From Methanobrevibacter sp. (GTDB lineage Archaea; Methanobacteriota; Methanobacteria; Methanobacteriales; Methanobacteriaceae): a stretch of 64,000 bases of DNA. Location of the stretch: NCBI RefSeq assembly GCF_017406825.1, contig NZ_JAFQXT010000017.1, positions 1-64,000 on the forward strand, read 5' to 3'. Position numbers and translations under genes: made by a program. How positions within the stretch are numbered: the first letter of the stretch is position 1; each line of letters starts with the position of its first letter. Below are positions 39,774 to 41,686 of the stretch, piece by piece. Under the pieces are notes generated by a model. That model saw only the letters and a program-made list of their open reading frames with translations, ran no database searches and was not told the DNA's origin.

Positions 39774-40003
39774 GATATAACCTATAATAATTAAATTACC
39801 TATTAATATATAGTTAACAGTGTTTAAAAAAGTATCGTATCTGAATTGAAAAAAATAGTAGATGTTTGGACATTTACTTATGATTCGATTCAACCAAAAA
39901 AGCGAATTAATAATTGAATTAAGCATCAACTGTTTCCACTATGATTAGATGCAATTCAACGAATCATGAAAATATTTATATATCTTAACATGCCTAAATA
40001 CAA
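39774..40003. promoter_or_regulatory. Promoters of the DUF366-queDE operon (minus) and candidate RNA 1 (plus)
   Basis: Minus strand: ACTATATATTAAT (about 39800-39815) for the operon. Plus strand: GAAAATATTTATATATC with a BRE-like GAAAATA and TATA box TTTATATAT (39975-39983), predicting a start near 40003-40006. The dyad at 39880-39967 lies between them. Confidence 0.6.
39880..39967. repeat. Bulged inverted repeat upstream of candidate RNA 1
   Basis: ATGATTCG (39880-39887) pairs with CGAATCAT (39960-39967). TTGAATT-AA-GCATC (39914-39927) pairs with GATGC-AATTCAA (39948-39959). The right arms are contiguous; the left arms are 26 bases apart. Twenty perfect pairs in total. It may be an RNA, an operator or the remains of an element. 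Confidence 0.5.
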
Positions 40004-40135
40004 TTTGAAGATTGGAAGGTAAAAGCCAATATTGGCTCAGCCTACATGTCATTGTCACCGCTGGTGGCGACTTTCCATGAAATAAATATTTCATAGGTCA
40101 ATTAGTTGGCTGTAGGTTCTTCAGTCTCTCATTCT
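40004..40135 (+). ncRNA. Candidate structured RNA 1 (own promoter, multibranch fold)
   Basis: Five helices can be drawn. P1: TTGAAGA (40005-40011) with TCTTCAG (40118-40124). P2: the palindrome AGCCAATATTGGCT (40024-40037). P3: GCCTACA (40040-40046) with TGTAGGT (40111-40117), stacked directly on P1. P4: GTC-A-CCG with TGG-C-GAC (40054-40071). P5: CCATGAAAT-AAAT-ATTTCAT-A-GG (40075-40097). The 13 bases TCAATTAGTTGGC (40098-40110) lie just before the P3 right arm. The region is GC-richer than other intergenic DNA and has a strong TATA box at 39975. It is not a tRNA, 5S rRNA or C/D RNA. It resembles the RNA at 58985. Confidence 0.65.
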
Positions 40136-40145
40136 ACTTTTAAAA

Positions 40146-41596
40146 TCATTTAAAGACTTCATCAATGTCCTTATTTTTAATCAAATCAATGAATTTAGAA
40201 TCACCATGCTCTAAACTCTGAAAAATTGACCATGCAATCAAGTCAACAATCTGCAATCCCTTTTCTTTAATGGAATTGGCATGAGTTATGTTTATCAAAT
40301 GACCCTCAGAATTATTGAGACTTGATGAAAATCTCTTATTGAAGTTGCGAATGTCTTCATGTTTGCTTTTGGACCTGTCAACAATGACACTGGTTGGTGA
40401 ACTTACAACAATTTTTTCAAAAGTTTCGAAGAAATTGACTCCACCCCCATATTCTGCAGCATTGTTTATGAAATTGCTGTTGAATGTTATATTGGAGGGA
40501 GTTTGCCTGTAGTTTACACCCCCTCCATATAGACGCGCGGTGTTGTTTACAAAATAAGAGGTAAAAACACAATTGGTTGATGTATCCTTGAACGTTATTG
40601 CTCCGCCGTTTCCGTTTTCGGTGTCGATTTGTCCCAGAGCAGAGTTATTTATGAAATAACCTGTAAAGCTATTGTTATCTGTGGTATTGTAGAAAAACAT
40701 TGCTCCGCCACAAGACTTTGCTATATTGAATCTGAAATCACTGTTGAACTTATTATTGTTTGATTTAAAGTAAAAAAAGATTCCTGCACCATAACTTGCG
40801 TTATTGTATCTGAATACACCTTCAAATCTGTTGTTTTCAGCAAAAGAGTAAAAGAAAATTCCCCCGCCACTGGCAGCTTTTGCGACATTATTGTAGAATT
40901 CTGCAGTGAAATTATTATTTGTGGATTTTCCTTTAATGTAAATTGCTCCACCACCTCTTTCTGCAGCATTTCCTTCATAATATCCATTTATTGAAGTATT
41001 AATTGTTTCATTGTTGAAATAGATTGCTCCACCATTATTTGCAGTATTGTTAATGAAAGTGGAGTTGATTTTAGAATTTTCAACAGCATTATTAATGTAT
41101 ATTGCCCCTCCTGAGCCAGAAGCCGTATTATTTATAAAAGTACAATTATCGACCATCGCTAAAGAAGCAAAATTTGCTGCTGAACCCTTAGACCCATTTG
41201 CATTGATTATATTAATATTTTTTAGTGTGACATTTGATCCTGTAAAAGTAAATATCCTCACTTGGCCTGAACCGTCTACAGTATGGCCTTGTCCATCAAC
41301 AATATAATTATCTTTAGCAATTGTAAATCCATCAAAATCTTTATCAGATGATGGGTCAAACTTATAATTTTTATTTAATATCAATTGATTTTCGGACTCA
41401 ATAATCAGGTTATTCAAATCAGTGAAATTGCCGACATCCGTTTCATCTGTAATGTTTCATCTGCAATCATATCGTAATCCTACATGGTAAAATTTATTTG
41501 ATTACAATCGGCAGCGCCCACAGAACCTAAACTTATTAAGACAAAAAGAAAAAGCATTGTAGGAATTATTGCTGGTTTTATAGATATTCCCCCCAT
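40146..41596 (-). pseudogene. Broken adhesin-like gene fused to the 3' end of a DUF3800 gene
   Basis: The ATG at 41596 opens a signal peptide (PAIIPTMLFLFVLISLGSVGA) that stops at TAG (41482-41480) after 38 codons. The rest continues in another frame: codons for TDETDVGNFTDLNNLIIES lead into 423 open codons (TTG at 41417). Residues about 40-335 of these are beta-helix repeats rich in FINNTA and GGGAI motifs, as in Methanobrevibacter adhesin-like proteins. From about 336 (EKIVVSSPTSVIVDRSKSKHED) the sequence changes to a DUF3800-like C-terminus ending GLQIVDLIAWSIFQ. So there is a nonsense codon, a frameshift and a recombined 3' end. Confidence 0.75.
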
Positions 41597-41686
41597 GATT
41601 ATAAACAATTAAATATTATACAAATTTAATATAAATAAATATCATTTAATTATATAAAATACAAAATTAACTTAGGAGTTAATATT

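Follow-up and report, generated by a model that had tools for sequence, protein, structure and literature searches.

A stretch of about 130 non-coding nucleotides between DUF366-queDE and an apparent adhesin pseudogene in Methanobrevibacter sp. had been proposed, from the letters alone, to be an undescribed structured RNA. The locus lies in a 64,000-nt stretch of contig NZ_JAFQXT010000017.1, the whole of which is referred to as the window. Is it a real RNA gene, and if so, what does the RNA work with? The answer leads to RNAs associated with DUF3800, a domain of unknown function. These RNAs, reportedly first described as motifs by Weinberg et al. 2017, have so far been catalogued without a function.

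A structured RNA gene with its own promoter

The features of the locus are collected in Table 1. The promoter was found where it had been placed, with GAAAATA at 39968–39974 and TTTATATAT at 39975–39983. Most TATA-like boxes of the family described below lie at about the same distance from the start of the RNA model (mostly −27 to −22), and judging by the TATA position, transcription of the window RNA probably starts near 40004 (5′ end 40003–40006). Positions 40004–40135 (132 nt) fold with −41 kcal/mol, compared to −27.2 ± 3.3 kcal/mol for shuffled sequences (z = −4.17, with none of 200 shuffles as good), and contain 40% G+C as opposed to 25% in the gap upstream, in agreement with the folded and comparatively GC-rich stretch of the original prediction. 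Its further claim, that the RNA looks unlike tRNA, 5S, SRP, RNase P and C/D RNA, also held: no tRNA or tmRNA was detected in the RNA stretch, and a scan of the window returned no Rfam family, either at the gathering threshold or at E ≤ 10. The proposed helix P1 stood in its inner part, while the outer pairs (40009–40011/40125–40127) are weak. The window RNA is confirmed as a real small-RNA gene.

Table 1 Features of the RNA locus in the window
Feature	Position	Strand	Evidence
Insertion with RNA, DUF3800 remnant and adhesin fragment	39818..41604		39817 and 41605 adjacent in L265, L269, L273 and L274
BRE/TATA promoter of the RNA (GAAAATA TTTATATAT)	39968..39983	+	Sequence; TATA-like box similarly spaced in 66/73 family members; copies align from about −36
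Structured RNA gene, family model R1/R2	40000..40138	+	cmsearch 126.9 bits; covariation; fold z −4.17
P1, 5′ strand GAAG, pairs with CUUC at 40119–40122	40015..40018	+	97.4% of cells paired; double changes at two pairs (alignment A3)
GUAAAA motif, conserved core	40019..40024	+	Nearly invariant in alignment A2; GUAA also anchors the core of DUF3800 RNAs of other phyla
P2 hairpin, insertion	40024..40037	+	5/5 pairs covary; missing from the shortest members (L149, L150, L165, L156)
P3, 5′ strand GCCUACA, pairs with UGUAGGU at 40111–40117	40040..40046	+	Double changes in 6/7 pairs
P3 extension, pairs with 40108–40110	40048..40050	+	Double changes in 3/3 pairs
P4 hairpin UUGUCAC/GUGGCGA	40052..40070	+	98.3% of cells paired; 4 pairs with double changes
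P5 hairpin, insertion limited to long members	40075..40097	+	Pairing kept while length and sequence vary
Partner remnant, C-terminal ~90 residues of DUF3800	40146..40430	−	PF12686, 22.4 bits, profile 67–148; stop codon beside the RNA 3′ end
Chimeric open frame, beta-helix adhesin repeats fused to DUF3800 C-terminus	40146..41417	−	ORF list; PF02415 repeats and PF12686 in one frame

A family of RNAs with a selected fold

Searching 139 genomes of the same taxonomic family at the DNA level produced approximately 26 diverged copies, and both the promoter and the RNA were conserved in a 25-copy alignment; one chance match (L049:5690, row 27 of alignment A1) was left out. A covariance model search identified 68 copies in 48 of the 139 genomes, with a maximum of four per genome, and with a broader model the number rose to about 75, spread over 51 of 152 Methanobacteriota genomes (6 of 20 genera, up to four per genome). 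Family members are 100–140 nt long, the shortest being devoid of P2 and P5, and have T-runs at the 3′ end. Across the alignments, variation lies in the hairpin loops and a short 5′ leader, with nearly all of the RNA either paired or conserved.

Compensatory changes, proposed at the outset as a check, were abundant: in alignment A3 (73 copies), 94% of cells pair and double changes occur in 24 of the 32 pairs, two in P1 and most of P3 among them, with the pairing of P5 maintained. The covariation score of A3 was 0.399, compared to 0.189 ± 0.007 after shuffling and 0.057–0.098 when pairing partners were slid; the first 25 copies scored 0.240 versus 0.155 shuffled and ≤ 0.077 slid. Because A3 was fitted to the model, A2 represents the fairer covariation test, and the two alignments agree. 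The other check named with the prediction, a comparison with Rfam, was also in its favour: no family of Rfam 15, DUF3800-V and DUF3800-X included, matched the RNAs of the window family at the gathering threshold. An Rfam search of 37 related or DUF3800 loci gave a sole match (DUF3800-X, in locus L161), and a search of 11 further loci gave none. These copies constitute a new and large archaeal RNA family, absent from Rfam and found in gut methanogens, with a fold that is under selection.

A convergent DUF3800 gene as partner

The prediction of a free-standing RNA gene was supported, with one correction: the RNA is not an orphan but makes up a two-gene cassette together with a DUF3800 gene. DUF3800 lies beside 29 family members and fragments of it, mostly of the C-terminal part, beside about 22 more, while the remaining copies have none. 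The architecture is fixed wherever the partner is intact, with the two genes tail to tail and the RNA 3′ end at the DUF3800 stop codon. For 28 of the 29 recovered frames, the end of the RNA model lies −3 to +8 nt from the convergent stop (the remaining frame, at L175, belongs to a broken copy outside this range), and overlap between the conserved RNA and the coding sequence is minimal. The cassette measures ~0.9 kb and consists of the RNA with its own TATA promoter and a convergent ~200-codon DUF3800 gene. Among copies with unrelated surroundings, the alignment extends from about −36, at the RNA promoter, to +845–890, just upstream of the DUF3800 start. The pair is conserved and occupies many genomic sites as a unit.

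Distances between RNAs and between proteins were correlated (Mantel r = 0.71, 0 of 5000 permutations), and the RNA and DUF3800 are linked and diverging together. Ratios of dN/dS between close DUF3800 pairs (0.06–0.21) indicate purifying selection on the protein. A partnership of the RNA with DUF3800 is strongly supported.

The nearest solved folds to the AlphaFold2 model of DUF3800 (pLDDT 95.4) were those of RNase HII (1uax, Z = 13.7, rmsd 2.5 Å over 154 residues); the structural comparison also matched PIWI domains of Argonaute. By sequence, no solved relative was significant, the best being RNase HII 1eke (E = 0.04). Residues D7, E8 and D170 were invariant and E55 and D125 nearly so in 45 diverse sequences, and DUF3800 is predicted to be an RNase HII-like nuclease with acidic active-site residues.

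Loss of one half of the cassette was uneven. Loci L044 and L048 are one locus, L044 having kept the RNA after deletion of most of DUF3800. In the family genomes searched, no intact ~200-aa DUF3800 of this clade was seen to lack the RNA, and RNA without protein is common; this order of decay favours an RNA needed by the protein, an argument weakened by the different target sizes (600 versus 130 bp) and the shared ancestry of the copies. RNAs without DUF3800 pair slightly less than those with it (91.6% versus 94.4%, P ~ 0.04), which fits relics. The idea that copies without DUF3800 prove that the RNA functions on its own was also considered, and their slightly worse pairing leaves it unsupported.

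Several copies depart from the usual arrangement. A longer Methanobrevibacter DUF3800 subfamily (~287–294 aa; L157 and L173) has no RNA at its 3′ end. Three RNA copies (L142:1971–2084, L144:2049–2162 and L124:143–254) have intact pairing, no upstream TATA box and no DUF3800, and two of them are identical though located in different genomes. At L055 (G019:C1 1777369–1779171), three RNA copies form a small tandem array around one intact DUF3800.

State of the window copy

What had been called an adhesin pseudogene does carry adhesin repeats, but it is a chimera, the last ~90 residues of which are the C-terminus of DUF3800. This remnant is 76% identical to residues 117–206 of the DUF3800 of L036 (the G000 DUF3800 match spans window positions 40218–40430), and the in-frame fusion with the adhesin probably arose by recombination. 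A gene annotated merely as an adhesin fragment can conceal the partner of an RNA. The insertion carrying all of these elements is ~1.8 kb long, and the site is empty in four relatives. It is empty in G097, where a separate copy (L121, G097:C3 near 284038) occupies the next gap of the same neighbourhood, a cassette insertion one gene away from the window's site. Many other RNA copies likewise adjoin large adhesin-like genes. A phage or viral element was considered and rejected: no DNA match was obtained in phages, and viral contigs gave only four distant DUF3800 hits.

Since the frame retains only the last ~90 residues of DUF3800, the window copy is decayed, and probably a relic or on its way to that state. 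Whether it is already dead, with no present function, appears evenly balanced, and such a state would be compatible with the explanation favoured below for the family. The window holds DUF3800 only as this C-terminus, no other DUF3800 match was found in the genome (94% complete), and the RNA is present there as a single copy, the only other hit being weak (C32, E = 1.1) and devoid of the core. Against a dead relic, the promoter and 31 of the 32 pairs are intact, and dN/dS of the remnant relative to relatives is still low, so that the loss of DUF3800 is recent.

Relationship to other DUF3800-associated RNAs

Putative ncRNAs have been reported alongside DUF3800, whose RNase H fold shows a catalytic rearrangement (PMC10910872); Rfam contains RNAs named after DUF3800, and DUF3800-I and DUF3800-IX RNAs are named in PMC11701678. 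Two of the Rfam families were compared with the window family. DUF3800-X (RF02984) is likewise free-standing and tail to tail with DUF3800, with an archaeal promoter and a T-rich end (L161, L231), and shares with the window family GUAAnnCC and GGGUYC flanked by P1; it is, however, only ~73 nt long with other internal helices, whereas the window family (100–140 nt) has the additional P2 and P5 and does not match the Rfam model of DUF3800-X. DUF3800-V (RF02964) occupies the same position and strand relative to DUF3800 (L220, L228, L233, L234, L235 and L237) and has the same GGUAA...GG core, but differs in length (~96 nt) and in its apical part, was found here in bacteria only and is not matched by the window family. 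At the two DUF3800-X loci and all six bacterial DUF3800-V loci, the RNA is always on the opposite strand just past the DUF3800 stop. Archaeal DUF3800 RNAs outside Rfam (L197–L214 and others) are similar to the window RNA in position and core; the core of the L197–L214 type reads P1 - GGUAAAACC - P2 - GUGUACC-UUGA-GGUGCAC hairpin - P2′ - GGUUC - P1′, and these RNAs are shorter (~62 nt), without the P2 and P5 insertions of the window family. Given the tail-to-tail position shared by V and X and the core apparently shared among DUF3800 RNAs, we regard the window family as a new family among the DUF3800-associated RNAs.

The RNA-strand tail flanks of 58 DUF3800 loci from many phyla had a mean fold z of −2.15 (29 of 58 below −2), compared to −0.43 and −0.66 in controls. 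A strict core descriptor (GUAA, then a CC..GG helix of ≥ 6 bp, closed by a P1 of ≥ 4 bp) was present in 31 of these 58 flanks and in 0 of 284 controls; as it was drawn up after viewing the sequences, only the absence from controls counts as an independent estimate, and the 31 does not. Thirty RNAs from other archaea, aligned over the core, gave a covariation score of 0.475 (0.208 shuffled, ≤ 0.13 slid). The core model from these other archaea (R3) located instances of DUF3800-X and DUF3800-V correctly (X at L231, E = 0.0023), but had no significant match in the window family, where it hit the window RNA at the correct place with E = 1.3. The family model R2, in turn, matched other DUF3800 RNAs weakly at the right place and strand (L170, E = 0.003; L208, 0.05; L200, 0.2; L228, 1.0). 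With R2 matches weak but well placed and R3 not significant on the window family, homology between this family and the remaining DUF3800 RNAs is likely, not proven.

The core appears to link RNAs that have been filed separately, and the two-gene cassette recurs across archaea and bacteria. One could go further and suppose that all of these RNAs (DUF3800-V and DUF3800-X, the window family and the archaeal ones outside Rfam) are homologous via the P1-GUAA-P2 core, their pairs with DUF3800 forming one ancient ribonucleoprotein immune or toxin–antitoxin system in which a convergent RNA would keep an RNase HII-like nuclease under control; this extension is tentative, and we lean somewhat against it. 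To our knowledge, a convergent, separately transcribed RNA controlling an RNase HII-like nuclease belongs to no described toxin–antitoxin or RNA-guided class.

A core-like RNA was seen at the tail of nearly every DUF3800 from archaea, Patescibacteria, Omnitrophota, Nitrospirae and others (L197–L257), and most of the tail RNAs scanned had no Rfam match.

Possible function of the pair

The selected fold, the fixed architecture, the predicted RNase HII-like fold of the partner and the apparently shared core together make the function testable. On balance, we favour a mobile defence or toxin-like nuclease that has the RNA as its obligate partner, probably in the role of antidote or cofactor. The folded RNA would bind the DUF3800 nuclease and would be required for it to work or to be carried safely; in the likeliest form, the RNA would keep the nuclease inactive, or load it, until a mobile element invades, by analogy with RNA-antitoxin (type III-like) defence modules. 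In the window genome, recombination with adhesin DNA has probably truncated the protein, leaving only the RNA.

In type III toxin–antitoxin systems, the antitoxin RNA, which neutralises a toxic endoribonuclease, is a repeat array located upstream of the toxin and co-directional with it. The cassette resembles such systems in combining a small structured RNA with a nuclease and in the RNA outlasting the protein in decay, but its RNA is a single convergent unit rather than upstream tandem repeats on the same strand, and its nuclease, with a predicted RNase HII-like fold, is unlike the type III toxin. PADLOC gave weak hits to PDC-M04A and DUF3800_VII, some DUF3800 neighbours are restriction-modification genes, and DUF3800 is an accessory nuclease at some class 2 CRISPR loci (PMC12669027, PMC10910872). 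The link to defence is nevertheless modest, since most DUF3800 neighbours in other phyla are housekeeping genes.

The occurrence of DUF3800 with CRISPR effectors, the RNase H-type predicted fold with its PIWI matches and the RNA copies lacking a local protein, which could act in trans, would also suit an RNA scaffold that supplies the RNase HII-like protein with a guide, much as omegaRNA does for TnpB. Such a function is disfavoured by the lack, throughout the alignments, of the long variable unpaired segment that a TnpB/IscB-type guide would need; in addition, the RNA on its 3′ side meets the end of the DUF3800 coding sequence and no other DUF3800 match was found in the window genome, and we consider a guide unlikely. 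Equally improbable, in our opinion, is regulation of DUF3800 in cis or by convergent antisense, with no role for the RNA in a protein complex: compensatory change over the whole fold, and diverse folds around a fixed core, point to a structure that is read by something, and overlap with the coding sequence is slight, even though tail-to-tail genes with meeting 3′ ends and T-runs at the RNA end are what such regulation might look like. Least likely of all is an RNA serving the spread of a mobile element, as its end or as a transposition cofactor with DUF3800 as the mobility nuclease, which would fit multiple copies (≤ 4 per genome) in many contexts, empty sites and persistence of the RNA after loss of the protein, but no transposase was seen, the edges of the unit coincide with the two promoters, and in many phyla the pair is a single copy among ordinary genes.
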